Shown in pieces: positions 13,579 through 22,820 of a DNA stretch of 22,820 nucleotides; the stretch's first letter is position 1, and each line of letters begins with the position of its first letter. Source of the stretch: a virus. The notes beneath the pieces were generated by a model. The model was not told the origin of the DNA, did no database searches, and saw nothing but the letters and a program-made list of their open reading frames with translations. A program made the translations under genes and the position numbers. The stretch lies in IMG/VR virus record IMGVR_UViG_3300003877_000012, positions 1 through 22,820 of that record; one strand, 5' to 3'.

Positions 13579-15162
13579 CTACTCGAAGCCGCCTAGGTCT
13601 GGTGCGAACGAGTCCCCAGAACTCCCAGTCGGTCGAATGTTGCGCCTGAAAAAGGTTATAGCTAGGGCGTCTCCGCAATCTGGCGACTTGATTCCGCGCT
13701 TCTTCATCTCGGCTTTACTCTCTAGTTGAAGCCGGTCTCCAGAGGAGTCAAACTTAAATGTCGTGGAGCACAGATCTTGTTGAAGCTCGTTCGCGTCTGG
13801 GATCTGACACCCTGTCTCGAACCATTGCTTCATCGTATGCCAAATCTCCGCTCGCTTGTTTTTGTACCGCTCCTCGTCGATGGCTCGCTCTGCGAACCCC
13901 ACACCGGTTACTTTAGCCCCGTAGCCTAGCTCAACGAGCCGGTCATACACTCCTGCCCCGTAACCTCCGGTCATGTCCACCCCAACGTGGTCCACTCGCC
14001 ACTGGCGCATCGCATGGATCACTCTCCCGCAGACCTCCATCGCATCCAAGTGGTTGTACCGTTTGTACCACAACATGCACCGCCCTTGCCGCACCACAAA
14101 CGCCGTACTGTCGTCTCCCTCTCTCGCCACGTCCACCCCAAGCACCACAGGGCCTGCGGGAACGTAAAAATTCTCGTTGAACTTGCGCCGCGCCTCCACC
14201 ACTAAGCTCGAAGGGATCAAAACATTGTTCACGGACGAATTGAATGCGTCCTCGGGGGTGCCCGGGTACTCCTGCATGAACTGCGCCACGTTGCCTTCTT
14301 TTTGAGCAATTTTCTGCCTCCTCCACGCTAACTGTCCGTGGCTTAGGTCGTGGATCTGCGCAAGGTCCCGCTCCTCGTCCGTGTACTCAAACCCATCCGG
14401 CGTGGGTAGTGAGTACTTAGGCTCCCAATACCACGGAATGAAACACTTAATGTACCCGTTCCACGCGGCATGAGGGTCCTCATCAATGTCGCAAGCGTTC
14501 TGCCACATGTTGTGGAAGTACCCTCCAAACCCTTTAGCTGTAGACTCCAAATACACCTCAGTGCCCGGCTCGTCTGGTATGCCCTCCATCGCTCCATCGC
14601 TGATTTCTTTCGCTGCTCTCCAATAAGCCACTTCAGATCCATGGAAGAATTGTATCGTCTGCGACCGCCCTGTGTCTCCCGTCTTGGCCGTGCCCACCGC
14701 ATACTCAGAATCAAGCTCCGAGAACAAAAGCTCCGAGACGTTTGATTTTTTTGTAATAGGCTTTAGCTCCGCAGGACAGTGCTCGTGGTATCGCTTGGCC
14801 ATGTTGAACAGGTTCTTAGTGGCGTCACCCTCATGCGTTAAAATAAACGCCTTTGTCCCCTCAACATGGATCGTCTTCCAGTACCCGCGCGCCTCCACCC
14901 ATGTGGATAGCCCTTGCTGCCGCGCCTTGCAGATTATGATCCGAACCTTGCCCCACCGCCTAATGCTCTCCTCAACCAGCGACGACAAATACGCCTGCGC
15001 TGCGTTGAACTTGAGCGGCTGCAACCCGTCCGTCTTAGTCTTAATCTTCAAGCACGTCGCCGCAAAATACTCGAAGTCTGTCATACACCGAAGACAAAAC
15101 TTGTCTATCTCCGCCTGGTGCCCCATCGACCCCTCTGCGCCCACATGCTGGTTATACTCCAT
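13579..15162 (-). CDS. terL: Terminase large subunit (packaging ATPase-nuclease)
   Basis: This 527-residue protein drives DNA packaging through the portal. The ATPase half carries a deviant Walker A (CKARQQGLST, 78-87), a Walker B-like strand (IQFFHGSEVAYW, about 170-181) with the acidic residue in SEVAY, and the coupling motif ESTAKGFGG (about 206-214). The linker has FMQEYPGTPEDAF (295-307). The RNase H-like nuclease half has LGVDVAREGDDST (341-353, first Asp), VGVDMTGGYGAGVYDRL (393-409, second acidic site) and SPDCGDALAITF (493-504, third Asp). All three nuclease acids are present, so the enzyme is probably complete. It overlaps terS by 11 bases. The QQGLST form of Walker A resembles headful-type terminases, which suggests but does not prove headful packaging. 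Confidence 0.92.
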   Translation of the reverse strand: MEYNQHVGAEGSMGHQAEIDKFCLRCMTDFEYFAATCLKIKTKTDGLQPLKFNAAQAYLSSLVEESIRRWGKVRIIICKARQQGLSTWVEARGYWKTIHVEGTKAFILTHEGDATKNLFNMAKRYHEHCPAELKPITKKSNVSELLFSELDSEYAVGTAKTGDTGRSQTIQFFHGSEVAYWRAAKEISDGAMEGIPDEPGTEVYLESTAKGFGGYFHNMWQNACDIDEDPHAAWNGYIKCFIPWYWEPKYSLPTPDGFEYTDEERDLAQIHDLSHGQLAWRRQKIAQKEGNVAQFMQEYPGTPEDAFNSSVNNVLIPSSLVVEARRKFNENFYVPAGPVVLGVDVAREGDDSTAFVVRQGRCMLWYKRYNHLDAMEVCGRVIHAMRQWRVDHVGVDMTGGYGAGVYDRLVELGYGAKVTGVGFAERAIDEERYKNKRAEIWHTMKQWFETGCQIPDANELQQDLCSTTFKFDSSGDRLQLESKAEMKKRGIKSPDCGDALAITFFRRNIRPTGSSGDSFAPDLGGFE

Positions 15163-15958
15163 AGACCTTGTCCCCCTTCAAGTCCAACAACTCTCGTTTC
15201 GAAACCTTCCTAGCCACCGCGCCAACACGCTTCGCCTGAATGTCCGCCGACCGATTCATCGCCGCCGACAGCCTCTTCACCCTCTCAGCCTGCGACTCAA
15301 TTGACGAAGTGGCTTTGTCGTCCTGACCATACTCGTGGTCCATCCGGTTCAACTCCTGCAACGCACTAAACGCCATCTTAGGATCTGCCAGCGCAACCAC
15401 CCTCTGCGACGTGACCGTCCCCGACTCCGAGCACACTACCTCATCCTCAACCTTCTTGACCTGCATCCCATACGCCACCAACTCCTTTAAAATCTTCCGC
15501 TTCCCCGTCCCTGACGCAATCGAAAACTCCCCCGCCAACTCCTTCAAATGCTCCCGGTCCGTCACAATCAACTTCTGCAACTCATCATGGTAGTATTTCA
15601 ACGATCTCGATGCCTTCACGAAACCACCAATGTACTCCGCCCGGGCCTTATCCGACGGCAAATGACACATCCGAGCCGATAACACCGCCAATCCTGGGTT
15701 TTTTCGCTTTAAAATCTTTGTGACGTTCCCAGGTGTCTCACCCAATTCCTCCACCACCTGTCCCATCTTCGTGTTCGCAATCGACGAGGCTACGACTCTT
15801 CGCTCCACGTTCGTCAAACCCTCCCACAACAACACAAAATCCGCCTTCGAGGGCCAAAAAGTATTGTCCACCTCCATCGCTAGATCCGACAACACCGCCT
15901 CTATCGAAGCGTTCATCAGCCGATTATTGTATCTCGGGACTTTATCAGGTCTAAACAT
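15152..15958 (-). CDS. terS: Probable terminase small subunit (DNA recognition)
   Basis: The 268-residue protein is the first gene of the late operon and overlaps terL, the standard place for the small subunit that binds the packaging site. Residues about 48-85 (NVERRVVASSIANTKMGQVV, then EELGETPGNVTKILKRKNPG) fit a helix-turn-helix: a helix, then GETPGNVTKILKR as recognition part. The C-terminal half is helical with basic residues at the end (SKRELLDLKGDKVYG), as expected for an oligomer that touches terL. The family is not recognised by exact match, so the call rests on place, length and the HTH. It directly faces the repeat-dense region, where its binding site might lie. Confidence 0.65.
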   Translation of the reverse strand: MFRPDKVPRYNNRLMNASIEAVLSDLAMEVDNTFWPSKADFVLLWEGLTNVERRVVASSIANTKMGQVVEELGETPGNVTKILKRKNPGLAVLSARMCHLPSDKARAEYIGGFVKASRSLKYYHDELQKLIVTDREHLKELAGEFSIASGTGKRKILKELVAYGMQVKKVEDEVVCSESGTVTSQRVVALADPKMAFSALQELNRMDHEYGQDDKATSSIESQAERVKRLSAAMNRSADIQAKRVGAVARKVSKRELLDLKGDKVYGV

Positions 15959-16118
15959 CGCGCCACCAGCGGTAAATGTAAATTTTCAGCTAGTGTATCC
16001 CATAGGACGCAGGATTCCTAGTTAAAGTAGTAGACAAATGCGGTTTTTTCGTTTTTTGGAATTTTTATTTTCACGCAGAAGCCGACCCTATATACATATA
16101 CCGACCAAGCCCCCCAGG

Positions 16119-16220
16119 TCTGAACCTCAAAACCTCTGAGAATTATTGCAAAAACGCGGGTCAAAAAAGGAGTCTCTTTTCGATTTTGGGGCCTAAAATC
16201 TGAGCCTCGAAACCTCTTAG
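16119..16220. repeat. Direct repeat of 22 bp, 80 bp apart
   Basis: The 22-base words at 16119-16140 and 16199-16220 (consensus TCTGARCCTCRAAACCTCTK, then AG) differ at three positions. They stand exactly 80 bases apart and lie 160-260 bases upstream of terS, so they could be protein-binding sites for late control or packaging. No function is shown. Confidence 0.6.
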
Positions 16221-16235
16221 CCGCTTAGGGTTTTA

Positions 16236-16262
16236 CTTGCGGCCCTTGCGGCCCTTGCGGGG
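16236..16262. repeat. 9-bp tandem repeat (cttgcggcc) x3
   Basis: Units at 16236-16244, 16245-16253 and 16254-16262, the last ending gggg instead of ggcc. A further partial unit (cttggg) follows. Confidence 0.7.
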
Positions 16263-16320
16263 CTTGGGTTGTACCGTGGCTGGGGGCTGTATGGCTAGTG
16301 GGCTGGGGGTCAGGTGCTCT

Positions 16321-16370
16321 GAGTGCTCGCAGGTGGAGGGCAGATCTTACCCTATACTATCGCATAGGGG
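16321..16370 (+). promoter_or_regulatory. Duplicated regulatory module, copy 1
   Basis: The module contains TGCTCGCAGGT at 16324-16334 and, exactly 29 bases from its start, TATACTAT at 16353-16360, followed by a base and GCAT. The same words recur with identical spacing at 16667-16716. TATACT matches a sigma70 -10 box at five of six positions, but no -35 TTGACA-like box is present, so an activator or a phage-specific factor would be needed. CCCTAT/ATAGGG at 16350-16355 and 16364-16369 forms a dyad across the -10-like word. Confidence 0.45.
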
Positions 16371-16490
16371 CACTGTCGAACGTCGCATACGGGGCAATCT
16401 GGGGGCTTGATTCCAGGCTTGAGGCGCGGAATTGCTGGCTTTTGGGGTGTTTCAGTGGTTTTGAGGTGTTTTTGGGTCTCGTGGGTGTCT

Positions 16491-16550
16491 TCGCGGATCT
16501 GTGGGGATCTTCGCGGATCTGTGGGGATCTTCGCGGATCTGTGGGGATCT
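16491..16550. repeat. 20-bp tandem repeat x3 with two GATC sites per unit
   Basis: The unit tcgcggatctgtggggatct occurs three times without any change (16491-16510, 16511-16530, 16531-16550). The ten bases before (gtgggtgtct) look like a decayed half-unit. Perfect identity suggests recent expansion or selection for an iteron. Confidence 0.9.
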
Positions 16551-16666
16551 ACCTAATGCCCTAGAATCGTCTCCGCTTCGCCTTTCGGCAGCTTCGATGT
16601 CTCGTTGGCTGCTCTTCTCAGATCTCGCAAGCAAAGTACTCAGCCTCTTAGAGCCTAGGCTTCGAG

Positions 16667-16716
16667 AATGCTCGCAGGTTGTACGATCGTTTAGGGGTAT
16701 ACTATGGCATTAGGAC
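16667..16716 (+). promoter_or_regulatory. Duplicated regulatory module, copy 2
   Basis: TGCTCGCAGGT at 16669-16679 and TATACTAT at 16698-16705, the same 29-base offset as copy 1, again followed by one base and GCAT. Between the conserved words the two copies differ strongly, so the words rather than the whole segment appear conserved. No gene with a ribosome site follows directly, so a small RNA or a replication primer transcript is possible. Confidence 0.45.
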
Positions 16717-16809
16717 TGCGAAATAATTCAGTGGTGGCGATTCTGGGCAGCTTAAATGCTGGGTTTTTGAGGCTGTTGAGCGCGGAACGCGGTTTTAAGG
16801 GTGAAAGTC

Positions 16810-16859
16810 GTTGCAGGTGCAAGAAAACCGTTGCAGGTGCAAGAAAACCGTTGCAGGTG
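16810..16859. repeat. 20-bp tandem repeat x2.5 containing TTGCA/TGCAA words
   Basis: The unit gttgcaggtgcaagaaaacc occurs at 16810-16829 and 16830-16849, followed by a half-unit at 16850-16859. Each unit holds TTGCA and TGCAA as an internal dyad (ttgcaggtgcaa). The TTGCA word recurs in the 11-bp arrays downstream. Confidence 0.9.
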
Positions 16860-16979
16860 AGGTGCACACGAAACGACACAATCGATGTCCTGTGATTTTC
16901 GACTTCTTCGAACACGGGTCGAGGGCACGTAAAATTCAGGTCAGTCTCAAACATCCCAAACCCCCCGCAAGGATCCAAA

Positions 16980-17031
16980 CCCCGAAGATCCTCAGTGATC
17001 CCCACCCCGAAGATCCAAACCCCGAAGATCC
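16980..17031. repeat. 12-bp repeats ccccgaagatcc x3
   Basis: Copies at 16980-16991, 17005-17016 and 17020-17031, with spacers of 13 and 3 bases. Each carries one GATC. Confidence 0.85.
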
Positions 17032-17036
17032 TCTCA

Positions 17037-17115
17037 GTGCAAGCCCCCCCTCGCACAGGGCTTGCACAGGGCTTGCACAGGGCTTGCACAGGGCTTGCAC
17101 TGGGGGGGCTTGCAC
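17037..17115. repeat. Iteron array A: 11-bp repeats inside 14-bp inverted arms
   Basis: Arms GTGCAAGCCCCCCC (17037-17050) and GGGGGGGCTTGCAC (17102-17115) are exact inverse complements. Between them cttgcacaggg repeats at 17061-17071, 17072-17082 and 17083-17093, with variant units on both sides. The array is the mirror of array B at 17354-17434. Confidence 0.9.
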
Positions 17116-17224
17116 CAGCCACAAACTTAGGCCCTATGCGGCCTAGCGCTCCGCTTCAAACGGGGGTAAATGCTCCCTTTCGATTTTTTTGCTCATTACT
17201 CCCAGATTCTTCGGATCCCCACTT

Positions 17225-17260
17225 TCTGATCCCCTCTCTGATCCCCTCTCTGATCCCCAC
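17225..17260. repeat. 12-bp tandem repeat tctgatcccctc x3
   Basis: Units at 17225-17236, 17237-17248 and 17249-17260, the last ending ac. Each has one GATC. The set lies between the two iteron arrays, about 40 bases before the A/T-only stretch. Confidence 0.9.
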
Positions 17261-17300
17261 TGCTTTTACCCACTTTCAGCAACTTTCTCTATTCTCTCTC

Positions 17301-17326
17301 TTATTTATATAATAATAATAATAAAA
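17301..17326. other. 26 consecutive A/T bases, candidate unwinding element
   Basis: From 17301 to 17326 every base is A or T, including a run of taa/ata triplets, inside an otherwise G/C-rich repeat region. It is flanked by array A (left) and array B (right). Such a stretch is what a replication origin needs for strand opening. It could alternatively be a simple-sequence expansion. Confidence 0.55.
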
Positions 17327-17353
17327 GAGTAGTAAAAACAAGCACTTACGTGT

Positions 17354-17434
17354 GGTGCAAGCCCCCCAGTGCAAGCCCCGTGCAAGCCCCGTGCAAGCCC
17401 CCCGCAAGCCCCTAGCGCTGGGGGGGCTTGCACC
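17354..17434. repeat. Iteron array B: mirror-image 11-bp repeats with inverted arms
   Basis: The 11-base unit gtgcaagcccc recurs at 17369-17379, 17380-17390 and 17391-17401, with a variant after it. Outer arms ggtgcaagccccccag (17354-17369) and ctgggggggcttgcacc (17418-17434) pair except for one extra G. The unit is the reverse complement of the array A unit with one base changed, so the arrays face each other across about 240 bases. Confidence 0.9.
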
Positions 17435-17480
17435 GATTCCGAGCTAAAAAGCGTCCGAAACCCTCAAAAATCCCCACTTG

Positions 17481-17504
17481 GATCCCCAGATCCCCAGATC
17501 CCCA
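17481..17504. repeat. 8-bp tandem repeat gatcccca x3
   Basis: Three exact units at 17481-17488, 17489-17496 and 17497-17504, directly before the 29-bp inverted repeat. GATC is thus spaced at eight bases. Confidence 0.9.
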
Positions 17505-17509
17505 AAACC

Positions 17510-17599
17510 CGATCACCAGTGGATATTCACTGATCCCCGTGAAAGTTCATTGGTGATCATGAAAATACATGGGGATCAGTGAATATCCACTGGTGATCG
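17510..17599. repeat. Perfect 29-bp inverted repeat with related word in the spacer
   Basis: Arms at 17510-17538 and 17571-17599 are exact inverse complements over 29 bases (core GATCACCAGTGGATATTCAC). The 32-base spacer holds a diverged further copy (GTGAAAGTTCATTGGTGATC, 17539-17558) and the dyad CATG-N6-CATG (17558-17571). Each arm itself contains CAGTG-N6-CACTG. A long cruciform or hairpin could form. The lack of a T-run argues against a simple terminator; an origin, operator cluster or packaging signal is more fitting. Confidence 0.9.
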
Positions 17600-17713
17600 A
17601 AAAATCCACGACCCTTAATATCCCCCACTACTAAAAGCCACTCCAGCCTAATAGCTTCCACCTCTAAACAACCTCCCAGATCCCCAAAGATCTTGCCACT
17701 AGATCCCTAAACC

Positions 17714-17729
17714 CTTGCATAACTGCAAG
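17714..17729. repeat. Small dyad CTTGCA-N4-TGCAAG
   Basis: CTTGCA (17714-17719) and TGCAAG (17724-17729) are inverse complements around a four-base loop. The TTGCA word links it with the iteron arrays and with the early promoter (17876, 17890, 17921). Confidence 0.6.
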
Positions 17730-17747
17730 TCGCTCAATTACGTCGAG

Positions 17748-17793
17748 TGGTCAACTTAACTAATATTTGGTCAGATTGGCCACATATTGGTCA
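17748..17793 (+). promoter_or_regulatory. Three TGGTCA sites at exact 20-bp spacing
   Basis: TGGTCA starts at 17748, 17768 and 17788; a degenerate fourth (AGGTAT) stands at 17808. The surrounding bases are not conserved, so this is not a simple tandem duplication. Near two helical turns between sites places them on one DNA face, suited to a cooperative regulator about 100-140 bases upstream of the early promoter at 17890. Confidence 0.55.
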
Positions 17794-17868
17794 AATAGGA
17801 TCACCTTAGGTATAAGCCTATACACCCACTTTTACTGATAGACCTAGCCTATGACAAGCATTTAATTT

Positions 17869-17918
17869 CATTTATTTGCAAGGAAACGCTTGCATTATCC
17901 TAATCATTGGATTATATT
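17869..17918 (+). promoter_or_regulatory. Early promoter P1, sigma70-like
   Basis: TTGCAT (17890-17895), 17 bases, TATATT (17913-17918). The spacer holds TAATCATTG at 17901-17909 and CATTTATTT lies upstream at 17869-17877. The same elements occur at 22548-22596 with almost identical spacing, which supports a real, regulated promoter. The transcript would start about 45 bases before the ATG at 17972. Confidence 0.7.
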
Positions 17919-17946
17919 GGTTGCAAGTCAAGGAAACGACCACTTA

Positions 17947-17974
17947 AAAAACAACCACAGAGGCAAGTAAAATG
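17947..17974 (+). repeat. Shared 28-bp leader, copy 1
   Basis: The 28 bases ending in ATG 17972-17974 are identical to 18200-18227. They include AACAACCACAGAGG, so GAGG serves as ribosome site nine bases before ATG. A related but diverged leader precedes ATG 22655. Confidence 0.85.
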
Positions 17975-18178
17975 TATGACTATTTAAATATGTTGCGCGC
18001 ATATAACGCAAAAACTTTGATCGGGCATAGATGTTTATCAATCAAAGACTTTACATCATCTTTTAAACGGGGTGTATATTCAGCGGAATGTGAAACAGGC
18101 TTCTATTCTGTGCCATTTTACGACTCGATCACGGGCAAGCAATATTCGTTACCTATTTTAAATACGTTGCGAACCTAA
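17972..18178 (+). CDS. Early protein of unknown function (68 aa)
   Basis: First gene after promoter P1, with GAGG nine bases before ATG. The product starts MYDYLNMLRAYNAKTLIGHR and is rich in Tyr and Ser, with two cysteines (22 and 40) and no membrane segment. No family is recognised. As the first early gene it may act on host functions or on replication, but the sequence gives no direct hint. Confidence 0.65.
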   Translation: MYDYLNMLRAYNAKTLIGHRCLSIKDFTSSFKRGVYSAECETGFYSVPFYDSITGKQYSLPILNTLRT

Positions 18179-18199
18179 AAAGTAACCCAAAGCCAAGTT

Positions 18200-18227
18200 A
18201 AAAACAACCACAGAGGCAAGTAAAATG
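18200..18227 (+). repeat. Shared 28-bp leader, copy 2
   Basis: Identical to 17947-17974 and ending in ATG 18225-18227. The preceding bases (acccaaagccaagtt) resemble those before ATG 22655 (acccaaagcaaactt), which shows the leader is a recurring unit in this genome. Confidence 0.85.
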
Positions 18228-18425
18228 AGCATATCAAGTAATCTACTAAAACTATCTAAAACATCTCAGAGCGCGGCATTAGAGAACGCGCACGGACAAT
18301 ATGTTGACTACAACGATGACACATATAACGAACTAGAAGTGTTTCAATTCGAGGACGGCAGCTTTTTAGCGTTTCAAAATTGTGATACGTATGAGTGTGT
18401 AGACTTGGCGGGAGAGGAGGAATGA
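18225..18425 (+). CDS. Small acidic early protein (66 aa)
   Basis: ATG is preceded by the shared leader with GAGG. The product is acidic, with YVDYNDDTYNELEVFQFEDG and the ending DLAGEEE, has two cysteines (53 and 58) and no membrane segment. Its first seven residues (MSISSNL) resemble those of the 127-residue gene at 18754 (MSISSEL), and the DNA over the first 15 bases is nearly the same, perhaps a duplicated start region. Small acidic early proteins of phages sometimes mimic DNA or inhibit host enzymes; this is speculation here. Confidence 0.65.
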   Translation: MSISSNLLKLSKTSQSAALENAHGQYVDYNDDTYNELEVFQFEDGSFLAFQNCDTYECVDLAGEEE

Positions 18426-18736
18426 TCGTCTTCAACTTAGGATCAAGCAACAAAGATCTAAAATGGGCAATTGGCAAAGAGTTCGCAGGTCAACGCGTTT
18501 TGGCAAAATGTCAGAGAATGGGCGGGAAATTTACGACCATCCACTGTGGGACTGAGTACGAGATCAAGCCCAACGGGTCGGTGGTCTTTGTTCGAGAGTG
18601 GATGGGATGCATTGCGAACAAAGCTCAGCGCGCGGAGTTTCTCAACCAAGTAGCTGGCGTGGGGTTCATTACTGGTCGACCCACCGCTCGAAAAATCGCT
18701 GAAGCAGTAAACAGCAACACGCTGATCTTAAACTAA
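18422..18736 (+). CDS. Early protein of unknown function (104 aa)
   Basis: A longer frame from 18395 exists, but ATG 18422-18424 overlaps the preceding stop as ATGA and has GGAG at seven bases, so it is chosen. The product is basic and mixed alpha/beta: KWAIGKEFAGQRVLAKCQRM, GKFTTIHCGTEYEIKPNGSV, VFVREWMGCIANKAQRAEFL, and a final helix TARKIAEAVNSN. Three cysteines are present. No family is recognised. The strand-turn-strand YEIKPNGSVVFV could be a small beta-barrel. Confidence 0.65.
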   Translation: MIVFNLGSSNKDLKWAIGKEFAGQRVLAKCQRMGGKFTTIHCGTEYEIKPNGSVVFVREWMGCIANKAQRAEFLNQVAGVGFITGRPTARKIAEAVNSNTLILN

Positions 18737-18753
18737 ACCAAGAGGATAGAACA

Positions 18754-19137
18754 ATGAGTATATCAAGTGAATTAGACAGAGAAGTGAAGCTTTATATTTT
18801 AAGTTGTGTGGATAATGAAGGGTTCGAGTGCTTAGATTATTGGACGCCTTGCGAGTCTATCCCCCAAAAAATTGATTTTCTTAGGGAACGGTTCGAGAGT
18901 GAATTCGGATTTAGAACAAAACAAATAGGGCGGCAAGCGGCCTGTAAGGAGTGGCTGCAAGGGTTAGCGCTGAGTATCGCGTATACGAATTACGATATTT
19001 TAGAGCTTGCGATTAAATGGGGTTCGTTGTCAAAATACCCCTCCAACGCGGAATGTCGCAAAATTTTAGATAATTACTTTAACTTTATGGCCGCCAAAAT
19101 GGTACAGCTTTTTAACGGATATAGGATACCAAACTAA
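18754..19137 (+). CDS. Conserved-type early phage protein (127 aa)
   Basis: AGAGGA upstream of ATG gives the ribosome site. The sequence has the order KIDFLRERFESEFGFRTKQI, GRQAACKEWLQGLALSIAYT, NYDILELAIKWGSL and ILDNYFNFMAAKMVQLFNGY. I recall small proteins in many unrelated phages with the same series (R-x-A-x-x-EWL-x-GL, NY-I-x-x-A-x-x-WG, Y-W/F-x-x-MA-x-K-x-x-QL), always of unknown function. It is helical, with no catalytic motif. It is the most likely of the early genes to have homologues. Confidence 0.7.
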   Translation: MSISSELDREVKLYILSCVDNEGFECLDYWTPCESIPQKIDFLRERFESEFGFRTKQIGRQAACKEWLQGLALSIAYTNYDILELAIKWGSLSKYPSNAECRKILDNYFNFMAAKMVQLFNGYRIPN

Positions 19138-19496
19138 TGATCGATTTAACAGAATACAATAATTCAGAATTATATGACTACGTTCAAAACGACGAGTATT
19201 TTTATAACCAATGCGAATCAATAGAAGATGAAAACGGAATTAATAACCTCATTTTGGAATTAGAGGAGCATTTTGTTTTTACTGAAGATCAAAAGAGTAA
19301 TTTAATAAATGAAATAAGTGAAACATTTTTAACTTTTGATGTTATTGTCGAATCGTTTGTTAACGGCAATAAAAAACAAACGATCGAACAAATAGAGGAA
19401 TTCGGACGGACTGATTTTATAATCGAATTAACTAATCTTGATAACGAAAAATTACGCAATAAAATCGCTTTTTTTATTCTAATGGAATGGAGTTAG
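19137..19496 (+). CDS. Very acidic early protein (119 aa)
   Basis: The start overlaps the preceding stop as TAATG. The product is strongly acidic with few basic residues, for example YNNSELYDYVQNDEYFYNQC and IEDENGINNLILELEEHFVF, and is helical. The gene is A/T-rich compared with the late operon. Acidic early proteins can be DNA mimics that block restriction or host nucleases; there is no motif that shows this here. Confidence 0.65.
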   Translation: MIDLTEYNNSELYDYVQNDEYFYNQCESIEDENGINNLILELEEHFVFTEDQKSNLINEISETFLTFDVIVESFVNGNKKQTIEQIEEFGRTDFIIELTNLDNEKLRNKIAFFILMEWS

Positions 19497-19501
19497 TTAT
19501 T

Positions 19502-19561
19502 ATGAATGTTTATAAAGCTCTAACTTTTAACACTGAGGTAATGCAAAATGATTTATACTAA
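19502..19561 (+). CDS. Possible 19-residue peptide ORF overlapping the next start
   Basis: ATG 19502 opens MNVYKALTFNTEVMQNDLY and ends at TAA 19559-19561, overlapping ATG 19548 of the next gene. GGAG lies nine bases upstream. Its EVMQND segment recurs at the end of the 72-residue protein (19816-20034), because both span the same 19-base junction. It may serve only to couple translation. Existence as a peptide is uncertain. Confidence 0.35.
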   Translation: MNVYKALTFNTEVMQNDLY

Positions 19562-19814
19562 AAAATACGATAATGAATGGGACTGTTACGACCATTGCGT
19601 GACTTTTGATATTCGGTTAGACCTAGGCAACAATTACAGCTATCGACATTTTGTAAAAGCATTAAGCAAAGTTCCAAAAGCAATAGAATATGTTCGGAAA
19701 ATGGATTGTGCCTTAATCGACGGGATCACTATAAAATGCCTTGGGAATTATGGGGTTATTAGTCTAACTACATGCATAAACGATTTAGAAGATCACTTAA
19801 GGGAGTATTATTAA
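19548..19814 (+). CDS. Early protein of unknown function (88 aa)
   Basis: GAGG lies ten bases upstream of ATG in a junction (19535-19553) identical to 20014-20032. The product has DNEWDCYDHCVTFDIRLDLG, SYRHFVKALSKVPKAIEYVR and GITIKCLGNYGVISLTTCIN: a strand-helix-strand arrangement with five cysteines. No family is recognised. Confidence 0.6.
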   Translation: MIYTKKYDNEWDCYDHCVTFDIRLDLGNNYSYRHFVKALSKVPKAIEYVRKMDCALIDGITIKCLGNYGVISLTTCINDLEDHLREYY

Positions 19815-19815
19815 A

Positions 19816-20034
19816 ATGATTAAGGATCAAGCACAATTTATAGCGAGCAAATATGGCATTAATTTTAACAAAAACCAAGTAGGTGAAACGATTCAATGTA
19901 TTGATGAAAAAGGGAATTGGTTTAAGTTAGAACGATTCAATAGTTCCCCTTGGTTCATTGGAGCTTCATCAACTACAAAAATAGTTCTAGATTTTAACGG
20001 ATTTAATAAAAAAGAGGTAATGCAAAATGATTAA
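19816..20034 (+). CDS. Early protein of unknown function (72 aa)
   Basis: It begins one base after the preceding stop, and its last codons (EVMQND) carry the ribosome site and start of the next gene. The product (MIKDQAQFIASKYGINFNKN, then GNWFKLERFNSSPWFIGASS) is a mixed alpha/beta protein with one cysteine. A/T-rich codons are used. No family is recognised. Confidence 0.6.
   Translation: MIKDQAQFIASKYGINFNKNQVGETIQCIDEKGNWFKLERFNSSPWFIGASSTTKIVLDFNGFNKKEVMQND
20014..20032 (+). repeat. 19-bp gene-junction repeat (second copy; first at 19535-19553)
   Basis: gaggtaatgcaaaatgatt stands at both gene junctions and supplies GAGG and ATG for genes at 19548 and 20027. It may show duplication of a translation start unit, as for the 28-bp leader. 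Confidence 0.8.
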
Positions 20035-20344
20035 TCAAAACCATACCTACGAAAAAATGCGGCAATTACATGTTGATTGTCAGTGTGAGTGCTACGACAA
20101 TAAATTAGATAATTGTTGTTTTGAGCGAGCGAGCGCGCCTTACAAATATCGAAGCAAGATAAAGACTACATTTAATTGTAAAAGTTCAGAGACTCGTTAT
20201 TTTGTTGAAAAATGTGACGAGTGGGTGAGAGTGGCTAGAGCGGATTATTTTGAGCGGCTCGCTGTACCCCATAAAACCGTCCATGGCGCGATCAAAACGA
20301 TCAAAGGGGTGATGCACACGCCAAAAACGATCTATTTTAACTAG
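20027..20344 (+). CDS. Cysteine-rich early protein (105 aa), possible metal binder
   Basis: ATG lies within the end of the previous gene. Seven cysteines are present, five of them clustered: C18, C20, C22, C30 and C31 (VDCQCECYDNKLDNCC), then C51 and C63. The C-terminal half is basic (HKTVHGAIKTIKGVMHTPKT). Clustered cysteines together with basic residues suggest zinc coordination and nucleic-acid or protein binding. The cluster does not fit a standard zinc ribbon or finger. No family is recognised. Confidence 0.65.
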   Translation: MINQNHTYEKMRQLHVDCQCECYDNKLDNCCFERASAPYKYRSKIKTTFNCKSSETRYFVEKCDEWVRVARADYFERLAVPHKTVHGAIKTIKGVMHTPKTIYFN

Positions 20345-20529
20345 TGGCTAGCTGCGAGGCCATTAAAGACGCATCGGGGGCATACTATTGCGCTCGATGC
20401 GTCATTACGTTTGAGCTTGACCGACACGAGGCTCTAACAAGTAACTGCTTAAGTCAGCGACAGATCCAAGCAGCAACACACGCGCGTTGGATGCCTCGTT
20501 TGAGGCGCATAATAGGGGAAACCAAATGA
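20344..20529 (+). CDS. Small early protein with CxxC (61 aa), GTG start
   Basis: The frame starts with GTG 20344, overlapping the preceding stop TAG by one base; no clear ribosome site is seen, so translation would rely on coupling. The product has AYYCARCVITFELDRH (C16, C19, H28) and C35, plus C4, a set that could hold one zinc ion. The C-terminus is basic (RWMPRLRRIIGETK). It overlaps the next gene as ATGA. Confidence 0.5.
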   Translation: MASCEAIKDASGAYYCARCVITFELDRHEALTSNCLSQRQIQAATHARWMPRLRRIIGETK

Positions 20530-20765
20530 TTGAGATCATAGAATCCAAGTTTCAAGGGTGCGACGTTGTAGCCGTGATCAAGCGCAACCCTCGCAAAGAT
20601 AAATTATTGTCAGTGCGCGCGGGGCGGTACGGGCCTCACGAGTTTAGGTGCGCGCGTTACCATTCCCCCGTGCCCGTGGTGGACTTGGTGTCCTCGTCGC
20701 TAGGACTTGTCGAGATCCGGCTGCTTAATGAGTATGAGCCACTTTATCCAGATCAAAAAGCTTGA
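20526..20765 (+). CDS. Last early protein, unknown (79 aa)
   Basis: A longer frame from 20487 is possible, but ATG 20526 overlaps the preceding stop as ATGA and has GGGGA at eight bases. The product starts MIEIIESKFQGCDVVAVIKR and is mostly strands with many arginines (NPRKDKLLSVRAGRYGPHEF). No family is recognised. A probable terminator follows. Confidence 0.6.
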   Translation: MIEIIESKFQGCDVVAVIKRNPRKDKLLSVRAGRYGPHEFRCARYHSPVPVVDLVSSSLGLVEIRLLNEYEPLYPDQKA

Positions 20766-20781
20766 AAGCTCCACCTGGTAG

Positions 20782-20838
20782 ACACTAACGGAAAAATCCA
20801 AGTGTTAAAAATGGTCTCCGCCTAAGGGGGCTTTTTTT
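20782..20838 (+). terminator. Hairpin and T-run closing the early operon
   Basis: Two elements lie after the last early gene. ACACT/AGTGT (20782-20786 with 20801-20805) encloses a smaller GGA/TCC pair. Further on, CCGCCTAAGGGGG (20818-20830) can form only a short bulged stem but is followed by seven Ts (20832-20838). A rho-independent terminator is likely, although the stem is weak. Confidence 0.5.
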
Positions 20839-20854
20839 ATGGGTGAGTGTAAAG

Positions 20855-20883
20855 TTGATGTTATGTGGGTTACGTAGTAACAT
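20855..20883 (+). promoter_or_regulatory. Promoter P3 with overlapping operator palindrome
   Basis: TTGATG (20855-20860), 17 bases, TAACAT (20878-20883). The palindrome GTTAC-gta-GTAAC (20869-20881) overlaps the spacer and -10 box, and ATGTTA/TAACAT adds an outer dyad. This is a typical place for a repressor, and the two genes downstream are helix-turn-helix proteins, so autoregulation is likely. Confidence 0.55.
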
Positions 20884-20914
20884 ATTACCACTGCAAACTT
20901 AACAGACGAATCAC

Positions 20915-21238
20915 ATGAACCAAATGTCACGATTAGAAGTTACGGTGTATCTAGGGATCTCAAAGAGCAGGTTCTATAAGCTCATTGACAAAGGGATCAT
21001 AAAACCATCAATCGATAGGATCTTGCGGGGCAATCGCGCTTGTGCTCATGCCTGGTCTGTTGAGTACATCGAGAGCATAGCTCCTAAGGTTGCGGAGTAC
21101 ATCCAAGCATCCAAGCGCGGAGAGGTGGAGAGCCTTCATCCTGACTACATCAAACTAAACCAGAAAAGCGAGGACCATCTTAATACAGTGTTCCGAGAGT
21201 TCTTAGGATCTAAGCAGCGGCATCGAGCGTATGAATAA
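20915..21238 (+). CDS. Helix-turn-helix protein, excisionase/MerR-like (107 aa)
   Basis: Residues 5-32 (SRLEVTVYLGISKSRFYKLI, then DKGIIKPS) form the winged-helix pattern of excisionase, AlpA and MerR-type DNA-binding domains: a helix, a turn GISKS, a recognition helix RFYKLI, then a wing. The remaining 75 residues are helical and basic. Starts at 20915 and 20924 are both possible; neither has a clear ribosome site. It lies behind P3 and overlaps the next HTH gene by eight bases. It may be a transcription regulator or a recombination directionality factor; no integrase is in the window to support the latter. Confidence 0.7.
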   Translation: MNQMSRLEVTVYLGISKSRFYKLIDKGIIKPSIDRILRGNRACAHAWSVEYIESIAPKVAEYIQASKRGEVESLHPDYIKLNQKSEDHLNTVFREFLGSKQRHRAYE

Positions 21239-21425
21239 ATTAAAGCAGTACCGGGAACACGCGGGCCTCACTCAGTATGAGCTATCGAGAAAAACGGGCC
21301 TTAGCTTGTCGATGATCAGTAAAGTCGAGCGCGATGAAACGGGCATATCGATCGAGAACGCGTTCTTCTTATCCGATGCACTGGGTGCAACCATGGAGGA
21401 AATTTGGGGGCTTAGGGTCTCTTAG
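21231..21425 (+). CDS. XRE/Cro-like helix-turn-helix regulator (64 aa)
   Basis: Residues 4-60 fit the HTH_3 (Cro/CI) domain: LKQYREHAGLTQYELSRKTG, then LSLSMISKVERDETGISIEN, then ALGATMEEIWG. The recognition helix is about residues 27-36 (SMISKVERDE). The protein is the domain alone, like Cro or small C-proteins. It overlaps the preceding gene, and its end overlaps by 14 bases the end of the convergent gene on the other strand. It would regulate P3 or the early/late switch. Confidence 0.8.
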   Translation: MNKLKQYREHAGLTQYELSRKTGLSLSMISKVERDETGISIENAFFLSDALGATMEEIWGLRVS

Positions 21426-21669
21426 CGTGGGCTTTTGAGCTTGGTTCGTGGGAGTCAACTTCTAAGCGCTCAACCCTGGAGAGTAAAGGATCTACTAAAG
21501 GGGCAGGACACTCTTGTTTAATGTCCGCAATCAGCCGCTGTGAATAGGCGTCGATCACTTTCCCCAGGCCGATGTTATTAAAGGCCACCGACAACACCAT
21601 CAAAGATCCGGCAAAGACCAGCGCGCTCTTACTGGCGTACTGCTCTAGACCTGGTTGCTTGGCTTTCAT
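21412..21669 (-). CDS. Single-membrane-segment protein in lysis operon (85 aa)
   Basis: The last gene of the leftward operon, starting with a TAATG overlap. One hydrophobic segment, SALVFAGSLMVLSVAFNNIG (about 15-34), follows a short polar N-terminus, and the rest is soluble with a basic end. It might be a holin-like or accessory lysis protein, because it directly follows an Rz1-like gene, but a single segment and the absence of an adjacent endolysin leave this open. Confidence 0.6.
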   Translation of the reverse strand: MKAKQPGLEQYASKSALVFAGSLMVLSVAFNNIGLGKVIDAYSQRLIADIKQECPAPLVDPLLSRVERLEVDSHEPSSKAHAKRP

Positions 21670-21914
21670 TATTTATGGGCTTCGTTGTGGGCTTTGATCA
21701 GTGTTTCAATTCGTGCTTGTCTTATTCGGCACACTTCTTGATTTTGGAAAATCTTTTGGCCAACGGCATCGAGCATCGACGCTTTTTCTTCCTCGGAGAA
21801 TTTCTGAAAATTACATTGTGTCGGAATGGTGAGTGATTTATGGACATTGACATAGCGAGTGGAGCACCCTGGGAGCACAACGAGAAAGACCAAAGCGAGC
21901 AGGGCGGCTTTCAT
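21669..21914 (-). CDS. Outer-membrane lipoprotein, probable o-spanin (Rz1-like)
   Basis: A short signal sequence MKAALLALVFLVVLPGC ends in the lipobox LPGC with Cys17 as lipidation site. The mature part of 65 residues has IPTQC and a terminal helix CRIRQARIETLIKAHNEA, similar in layout to Rz1-type outer spanins. With the i-spanin-like protein at 22263-22523 it could form the two-component spanin that breaks the outer membrane at lysis. The two genes are not nested as in lambda but separated by two small genes. The mature part is less proline-rich than lambda Rz1. Confidence 0.6.
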   Translation of the reverse strand: MKAALLALVFLVVLPGCSTRYVNVHKSLTIPTQCNFQKFSEEEKASMLDAVGQKIFQNQEVCRIRQARIETLIKAHNEAHK

Positions 21915-22165
21915 ATCGATTCAAATCCTGGAGCCACACGGGTATCTAAAAATAGATCGATAAGGTCTCTTTCTACTAGTCTTAGCTCGCCGAGTAGAAT
22001 TAGCGCTTTGCTATCTATGCCGAACTGGTTCCAACAGTTCCCTTCGCCATCGACACCGAGAGCAATAATCGATTGAACTTCTCCCGCTTTCGCTCGCTCT
22101 AAGATATTTTCAATAACTGAAATAGCGTTTTTATTTACTTTTAGCGTGTTGATTTCTGTAATCAT
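21911..22165 (-). CDS. Conserved-type small phage protein (84 aa)
   Basis: ATG 22165 overlaps the preceding stop as ATGA and is chosen over an ATG at 22186. The sequence NAISVIENILERAKAGEVQS, IIALGVDGEGNCWNQFGIDS, then LILLGELRLVERDLIDLF matches a pattern I recall from small phage proteins of unknown function (ERA-x-GE-V, VD/G, G-x-LxLL). It is alpha/beta, without a membrane segment. Its role in this operon is not known. Confidence 0.65.
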   Translation of the reverse strand: MITEINTLKVNKNAISVIENILERAKAGEVQSIIALGVDGEGNCWNQFGIDSKALILLGELRLVERDLIDLFLDTRVAPGFESI

Positions 22166-22266
22166 TTTGATTTCGCTAACACACATTTAGTGCACGTTGG
22201 TTGGTCTTTTTGTGTATGAAATTCGTTGCCACATTTGCTACAGCGCTTTATAGCTAACTCGTTCAT
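22162..22266 (-). CDS. 34-residue zinc-ribbon protein
   Basis: ATG 22266-22264 overlaps the stop of the i-spanin-like gene as ATGA, and its own stop overlaps the next start as ATGA. The product MNELAIKRCSKCGNEFHTQK continues DQPTCTKCVLAKSK. Cysteines 9, 12, 25 and 28 form CxxC-N12-CxxC, a compact zinc ribbon, with many lysines around. Both-side coupling and the four-cysteine set make it a real gene despite its length. It may bind nucleic acid or a host protein. Confidence 0.7.
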   Translation of the reverse strand: MNELAIKRCSKCGNEFHTQKDQPTCTKCVLAKSK

Positions 22267-22523
22267 ATCTCATTCTTCCAATCTATTGAGGATTTTTCGA
22301 TATTCTCGATTAGCTTCTCTTCTGTTATTTCAGCTTCTTTCGCAGCACGTTCAATAATGTTATCAATTTTCTTTTCGGTCTCTAGCCCAGCGTTTTTTGC
22401 TTTCAATTCGCGCTTTTGAAACGACAAAATCTTGACGTAAGCGAGCAAGCCAACAATTAAAGCGGACAAAACCGCTGTTATTTTAATCCAAATTCCACTG
22501 AAAAGTGCTTTCATGTAGCCCAT
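22263..22523 (-). CDS. Membrane-anchored coiled-coil protein, probable i-spanin
   Basis: The 86-residue product has an N-terminal membrane segment (IWIKITAVLSALIVGLLAYV, about 11-30) followed by a charged helix (FQKRELKAKNAGLETEKKID, NIIERAAKEAEITEEKLIEN), the layout of inner-membrane spanins (Rz and DUF2681-type). GAGAG stands before ATG. It is the first gene of the leftward operon. With the lipoprotein at 21669-21914 it would form the spanin complex; sequence alone does not exclude another membrane role. Confidence 0.6.
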   Translation of the reverse strand: MGYMKALFSGIWIKITAVLSALIVGLLAYVKILSFQKRELKAKNAGLETEKKIDNIIERAAKEAEITEEKLIENIEKSSIDWKNEI

Positions 22524-22547
22524 TCTACTCTCTTTTTAAATTATTTG

Positions 22548-22596
22548 CATTTATTTCCGCATAACCCTTGCGTTACGATAATCATTGCGTTACAGT
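22548..22596 (+). promoter_or_regulatory. Early promoter P2, second copy of P1
   Basis: CATTTATTT at 22548-22556, TTGCGT at 22568-22573, TAATCATTG at 22579-22587 in a 17-base spacer, TACAGT at 22591-22596. Spacing to -35 and -10 and the 9-mer are the same as in P1. The distance from -35 to ATG is 87 bases, against 82 for P1. Confidence 0.65.
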
Positions 22597-22654
22597 ACTT
22601 GTGAGCTGAGGACTTGACCCAAAGCAAACTTAAAACAAACCAAAGGCGAAAATT

Positions 22655-22820
22655 ATGATTAATCTAAAAGAAATGCAAGTAACAACTATTCAGTTTTTCG
22701 ATTACTCGAACGCAGATAACTGCACTGACTATTCAGCTAATATTATTTTAGATGAAAAGCTAGTAATACAGTTGAGCGGAAACGAGAACGAAGCCCATAA
22801 AGCCTCAATCCCAAGCGCAA
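22655..22820 (+). CDS. Partial early protein at right edge (55 aa visible)
   Basis: ATG 22655 follows a leader similar to those at 17947 and 18200 (acttaaaacaaaccaaaggc before it, with AAGG as ribosome site). The visible part starts MINLKEMQVTTIQFFDYSNA and is acidic, with strands and one cysteine; the frame is open to the end of the window. No family is recognised. It is probably the first gene of another early operon under P2. Confidence 0.65.
   Translation, partial: MINLKEMQVTTIQFFDYSNADNCTDYSANIILDEKLVIQLSGNENEAHKASIPSA

Follow-up and report, generated by a model that had tools for sequence, protein, structure and literature searches.

The IMG/VR virus record IMGVR_UViG_3300003877_000012, all 22,820 bases of which form the window analyzed here, contains two similar promoter-like stretches, P1 and P2, and raises the question of whether these are copies of one regulatory unit and whether a protein binds between their hexamers. 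P1 (positions 17890 to 17918, plus strand) consists of TTGCAT, a 17-base spacer, and TATATT, and P2 (22568 to 22596, plus strand) consists of TTGCGT, a spacer of the same length, and TACAGT. Both are non-coding, and each follows a minus-strand gene and stands at the head of a plus-strand block. In the reading favored here, with a confidence only slightly above even, P1 and P2 would be paralogs of one sigma70-type promoter-leader unit whose spacer holds an operator.

The equal spacing reported in the first-pass annotation is confirmed by the common pattern TTGCRT-17-TAnAnT, as is the 9-mer TAATCATTG at an equal offset, 11 bases past the first base of the -35 box (17901 and 22579). A search of both strands finds exactly two exact copies of TAATCATTG in the window, those in P1 and P2. 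The element CATTTATTT also occurs in only two exact copies in the window, both on the plus strand, upstream of P1 (17869 to 17877) and of P2 (22548 to 22556); its presence ahead of both promoters stands, but not a common register, with distances to the -35 box of 21 versus 20 bases. Ahead of P1, CATTTATTT is placed as would suit an upstream (UP)-like element. Beginning at this AT-rich element and continuing as far as the start codon, the two copies are alike over ∼115 bases. In local alignments, P1 against P2 scores above all 3,000 of 3,000 dinucleotide-shuffled pairs, and it does so under both scoring schemes used, whether the complete upstream region or just its promoter part is aligned. Among the upstream regions of all pairs of the 44 called genes, P1/P2 ranks second, the leader repeat of the genes e1 and e2 being first. 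A matrix built from the two copies picks out no further one in the window, the next site scoring 6.5 versus 44, inside the range of 15 simulated sequences. A shared regulatory unit, as proposed earlier, is supported by two non-coding copies that head rightward blocks and are alike to the start codon, with a five-copy precedent in the related record G014.

The leaders show how far the unit extends beyond the promoter. Leader copy 1, with a GAGG Shine-Dalgarno-like stretch (17940 to 17974, plus strand), reaches the ATG of e1, the first gene of the rightward block (17972 to 18178, plus strand; 68 amino acids, without a Pfam match). Leader copy 3 (22617 to 22657, plus strand) reaches the ATG of r1, the first gene after P2 (22655 to 22820, plus strand), which is cut by the record end. 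CTTAAAA(A)ACAA(A)CCA is present in both leaders, as described before. The motif acccaaagc, said to be in both as well, is missing from the P1 leader; ACCCAAAGC occurs only at 22617, in the P2 leader, and at 18185, in the leader of the second gene, which has no promoter copy. The latter, leader copy 2 (18185 to 18227, plus strand), stands ahead of e2 without a P1/P2-type promoter, and the e1 and e2 leaders have a perfect 28-base stretch in common that ends at the ATG. A weaker copy (18730 to 18756, plus strand; 74%) precedes e4. Because the leader is repeated before e1, e2, and r1 and weakly before e4, it is not specific to the promoter. The core description of the pair is correct apart from one detail, and the pair is real, with modest significance.

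The differences between the copies bear on the question of a bound protein. With the initial T of the -35 box as position 1, P1 and P2 differ at seven positions in 26 bases (5, 9, 10, 11, 21, 22, and 26). In P1 as well as in P2, the bases pair as complements at 5-26, 9-22, and 10-21, and thus six of the seven differences are compensated about one axis. P1 contains the imperfect dyad ATTATCC-TAATCATT-GGATTAT (17894 to 17915, plus strand; 6 of 7 arm pairs), and P2 contains GTTACGA-TAATCATT-GCGTTAC (22572 to 22593, plus strand; 5 of 7). Since three difference pairs are complementary in both copies, TAATCATT is read as the center of an imperfect dyad with co-changed arms. Random-substitution controls are as compensated in 4 to 5 of 20,000 cases over the 26 bases and in 9 to 10 of 20,000 over the 29-base promoter, and a separate compensation test over the 26 bases gives a value of 0.0001. 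Four compensated pairs are observed over a 51-base stretch. The first-pass annotation argued for a bound factor on the grounds that spacer bases are not normally conserved. This premise fails for phage promoter families, as the available descriptions of the T4 early promoters (PMC2988021), with their additional consensus bases, and of the extended start-associated sequence (ESAS) repeats (PMC11373665), which take in entire promoters, indicate. The factor itself is a plausible and reasonable, as yet unproven, idea, with some support from the symmetric differences, but duplication alone explains the conservation. P1 and P2 could be plain duplicated sigma70 promoters that have the 9-mer in common through recent duplication and bind nothing in the spacer. 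The likeness does cover the whole ∼115-base unit beyond the 9-mer, and leaders are duplicated in the same genome as well; against this stand the patchy conservation, with a 9-base block identical while both flanks differ, and the symmetry of the differences, which leave plain duplication somewhat unlikely though deserving of serious weight.

The dyad overlaps a direct repeat with a spacing of 17 bases, TTGCATTAT/TTGGATTAT from 17890 in P1 (8 of 9 matching) and a perfect repeat of TTGCGTTAC at 22568 and 22585 in P2, and both copies can be read as TTGSRTTAY repeated at this spacing. The repeat, with its equal spacing, and the weak -35 hexamers would suit an activator site, at which a factor from the phage or the host brings polymerase to an otherwise weak promoter. 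A distance of 17 bases is a non-integral number of helical turns, however, and concerted changes at two repeat positions arise in 8% of random controls. RTTAY is nearly self-complementary, so the dyad and the direct repeat are not fully separable. An activator site is considered improbable. The compensated arms would also fit a transcribed RNA hairpin with a conserved loop, UAAUCAUU, and a variable stem, the true start sites lying upstream. Its outer CTTGCR/YGYRAG arms keep their pairing through G-U, and repeated leader hairpins with varying yet paired stems exist in other relatives carrying the capsid gene. The P2 RNA folds no better than shuffles (z 0.26), though, a consensus fold of the two sequences is marginal (across four forward stretches, 27 to 74 of 1,000 column shuffles are equally good), and the kept TTG and TA-A-T bases fit a promoter, which makes the hairpin very improbable.

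The favored reading suggests the following mechanism. One promoter-plus-leader unit ending at the start codon would have been duplicated, and the e1 and r1 blocks would be transcribed rightward by the sigma70-type RNA polymerase of the host. With two copies in a 22.8-kb fragment, the early timing and the regulon proposed in the first-pass annotation are conjectural. A repressor bound at the dyad RTTAYSN-TAATCATT-GSRTTAY, between the -35 and -10 boxes, would block the polymerase. The A-rich leader with GAGG may serve as a start-associated translation leader that spread also to a site without a promoter copy. An intrinsic-terminator-like site (20813 to 20840, plus strand), ahead of the genes h1 and h2, would end the P1 transcript, and h1 and h2 would then be served by a candidate promoter, P3, TTGATG-17-TAACAT (20855 to 20883, plus strand), with a putative regulatory role. 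The gene h2 (21231 to 21425, plus strand) encodes a 64-residue Cro/CI-type HTH_3 protein (E value, 2.6e-15) and, lying in the rightward region, would be the natural candidate for the dyad-binding repressor; h1 (20915 to 21238, plus strand) encodes a weak HTH_17/excisionase-like DNA-binding protein with matches below the curated cut-off. Binding of either protein to P1 and P2 is a guess from genome position. P3 contains the dyad GTTACGTAGTAAC (20869 to 20881). Four RTWAY pentamers lie at 20855 to 20888, ahead of h1-h2; four such sites in 31 bases occur at three places in the window, namely, P2, P3, and a TAA microsatellite, P2 being the other cluster outside the microsatellite. Such clustering is not claimed as an operator unit, and 39 of 100 simulated sequences hold at least one cluster.

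Promoter activity of P1 and P2 is suggested by their position, by the kept TTG and TA-A-T bases, and by the G014 relative. The bases kept in both hexamers, TTGC-T and TA-A-T, include the positions most important to sigma70. With a score built on sigma70 base frequencies, P1 (8.95) ranks 28 and P2 (6.78) ranks 145 among 45,580 position-strands. Several observations weigh against promoter-leader units with a spacer operator. P2 is a poor sigma70 match, and a stock consensus promoter scan of the window listed neither P1 nor P2 because TTGCAT and TTGCGT match just three of the six consensus -35 bases. Rival sites in the same intergenic stretches score equal or higher, such as TTCTCT-17-TATAAT at 17285 and matches overlapping the leaders. 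The alignment score of 35, taken alone, leaves a modest margin under multiple testing, since the top chance score with all upstream regions shuffled is 27 in one set and 33 in an independent one. The compensation controls are also less favorable over other lengths, with 143 to 183 of 20,000 over 39 bases, 252 to 270 over 51, and 924 to 1,149 over 41. With two copies only and tiny covariation counts, the symmetry signal is suggestive, because the test was chosen after the sequence had been seen. Genome position is the sole link between h2 and the dyad, and the P1/P2 unit is found in none of the searched relatives.

Among known systems, the ESAS and start-associated sequence (SAS) repeats of cluster K mycobacteriophages are the closest kind. 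Adephagia has seven intergenic ESAS repeats of 46 to 47 bp in which SigA-like hexamers are separated by 17 to 18 bp and an imperfect inverted repeat is present, and those authors regard the binding of a regulator at these repeats as plausible, as far as the available account goes (PMC11373665). SAS leaders are described both with and without ESAS in the relevant sections of two reports (PMC3203893, Pope et al. 2011; PMC12699233). In these descriptions, ESAS/SAS resembles P1/P2 as a repeated intergenic unit with sigma70-like hexamers at a 17- to 18-base spacing, an imperfect inverted repeat, and a start-associated leader that occurs also without the promoter part; the window has two non-coding copies at such a spacing. 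The ESAS arms span 15 to 17 bases, in contrast to 7 bases in P1/P2 (6/7 and 5/7 paired), and in place of the 13-base SAS GGGATAGGAGCCC before the start codon, the leaders of the window read ...AACAACCACAGAGGCAAGTAAAATG and ...AAACCAAAGGCGAAAATTATG. The sequence and the virus group differ as well, with seven copies in Adephagia versus two in this fragment. Because arm length and SAS sequence do not agree, the P1/P2 unit is not classed as a member of ESAS/SAS.

The T4 early promoters are also near, as a phage promoter set for the host polymerase with extra consensus outside the hexamers, according to the portion of the T4 study concerned with them (PMC2988021). As described there, these promoters match strongly and have TGn and UP elements, whereas P1 and P2 have poor -35 boxes and lack the TGn of an extended -10 box, GAT and CGT preceding their -10 hexamers. 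Lambda CII-dependent promoters are similar to P1 and P2 in having TTGC-type repeats around the -35 box. CII promoters need TTGC-N6-TTGC, in contrast to the arrangement TTGC-N13-TTGS in P1 and P2. The layout of the unit is known in principle from other phages, and its sequence is its own. General literature searches, which cannot show absence from print, turned up no description of it.

Capsid relatives are numerous (80 of 129 loci kept) and include Vibrio phages, with 67.5% identity in the capsid, and a contig from a Colwellia bin; the terminase is 49 to 50% identical to those of Vibrio phages, and a search for the large terminase (TerL) in viral_contigs gives no matches. Twenty related records, two of them annotated Vibrio phage records and several partial, were scanned with a simple gene caller. 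In 7 of the 20 (G004, G006, G008, G010, the Colwellia contig, G014, and G015), repeated elements form clear groups immediately ahead of start codons; G004 and G006 share elements, as do G014 and G015, so that each pair counts as one virus. G016 has one 50-base exact repeat ahead of two genes, and in G021 there are terminators and recurrent palindromic stretches that resemble promoters; D65 and G022 show weak leader pairs or terminators, and G017 and G020 show just weak or terminator-like pairs. Repeated upstream elements were not found in the remaining 7 of the 20 scanned records (1.232.O, G011, G012, G013, G018, G019, and G023).

A repeated promoter is present in one virus only among the 20 records, G014, with the same copies in G015. 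Its five intergenic TTGCNT-17-TANNNT copies (45767+, 41777+, 38242-, 37013-, and 46812+) have a conserved 3' half of the spacer and score 43.8 to 51.0, whereas the next site scores 7.3 and six simulated sequences reach no more than 9.4; a scan of viral_contigs finds this unit in G014 and G015 only. The unit type, TTGCNTT...TTATTGATAAACTGAAGG, lies within 36.8 to 47 kb (L112 to L114), and two of the five copies share a leader. G014 copies and P1/P2 share only an ATAACC-TTGCGTT stretch. Homology of P1/P2 with promoters of the relatives is unproven, as the top scores (34) among 2,400 comparisons show a scattered distribution, with no G014 copy ranking above 7. TAATCATTG alone occurs in 2 of 25 searched records, the window included, and its count in five host-size genomes varies widely and is uninformative. 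Pattern scans of viral_contigs yield chance matches or none: TTGNNTTANNNTAATCATTGNNTTA occurs in five contigs, four of them near-identical to each other, in another context and without likeness to P1/P2 outside the pattern; RTTAYSNTAATCATTGSRTTAY occurs in three contigs, all three matches lying inside called genes; and the leader pattern has no matches.

A broader and rather unlikely idea is that each virus with this capsid module has a private promoter or leader address, internally repeated, that a factor encoded by the virus reads and that turns over faster than the capsid genes; the compensated arms of P1 and P2 would then mean that symmetry or structure is recognised beyond sequence. The cases in question are P1/P2, the TTGCNT...TTATTGATAAACTG set in G014, and the hairpin leaders in G008/G010 and the Colwellia bin contig. 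If the favored reading of P1 and P2 is right, promoter-plus-start-leader repeats as in mycobacteriophages would extend to another virus group, one connected to Vibrio phages and a Colwellia bin through its capsid relatives. Address units would be suggested as a recurring, fast-changing phage means of co-regulating small genes, and the small helix-turn-helix proteins of the same genome would gain concrete binding sites. In G008, G010, and the Colwellia contig (L091, L094, and L111), nine repeated leader hairpins stand ahead of small genes. Their stems vary among most copies yet fold, with conserved flanks AATGATCTGY...TGTCGGAATCATCC and AATCATTCG...GCTGAAATA, and they look like a covarying RNA element. 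Three stretches at 16.0 to 17.9 kb in G021 (L127) contain ATAGCAAAGCTAT / ATAGCATTGCTAT-like palindromes, one of them surrounding a box similar to TTGACA, that may be compared to the repressor operators of a switch.

Because longer related records span 41 to 62 kb, the window is probably about half of a genome or less, the full genome probably exceeding 40 to 50 kb; the record ends 224 bases beyond P2. Minus-strand structural genes fill the left part, with large terminase, portal, and major capsid protein matched in PHROGs, and 15155 to 15958 is presumed by position to be the small terminase gene. Small plus-strand genes run from 17972 (e1) to 21425 (h2), followed by a minus-strand cassette (21412 to 22523) that includes a holin-like protein. 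A Pfam run on the early proteins, which left out e7, e9, and one further open reading frame, gives no family for e1, e2, e4, e5, e6, and e8 and sub-threshold matches only for e3 and r1. A 2-kb non-coding gap (15959 to 17971) separates e1 from the divergently oriented, presumed small terminase gene. This gap is dense in short repeats, both tandem and inverted, among them a 41-base inverted repeat (17510 to 17550 and 17559 to 17599; 90%) and CTTGCACAGGG repeats at 17050 to 17104 that are inverted relative to those at 17365 to 17408, and is possibly a replication origin or control region. Rfam gives six weak matches in the window, all below the gathering score, five of which fall on the 41-base inverted repeat. 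The gene e4 (18754 to 19137) has distant relatives at 27 to 44% identity in unrelated phages, including Aeromonas phages and the Pelagibacter phage HTVC010P.

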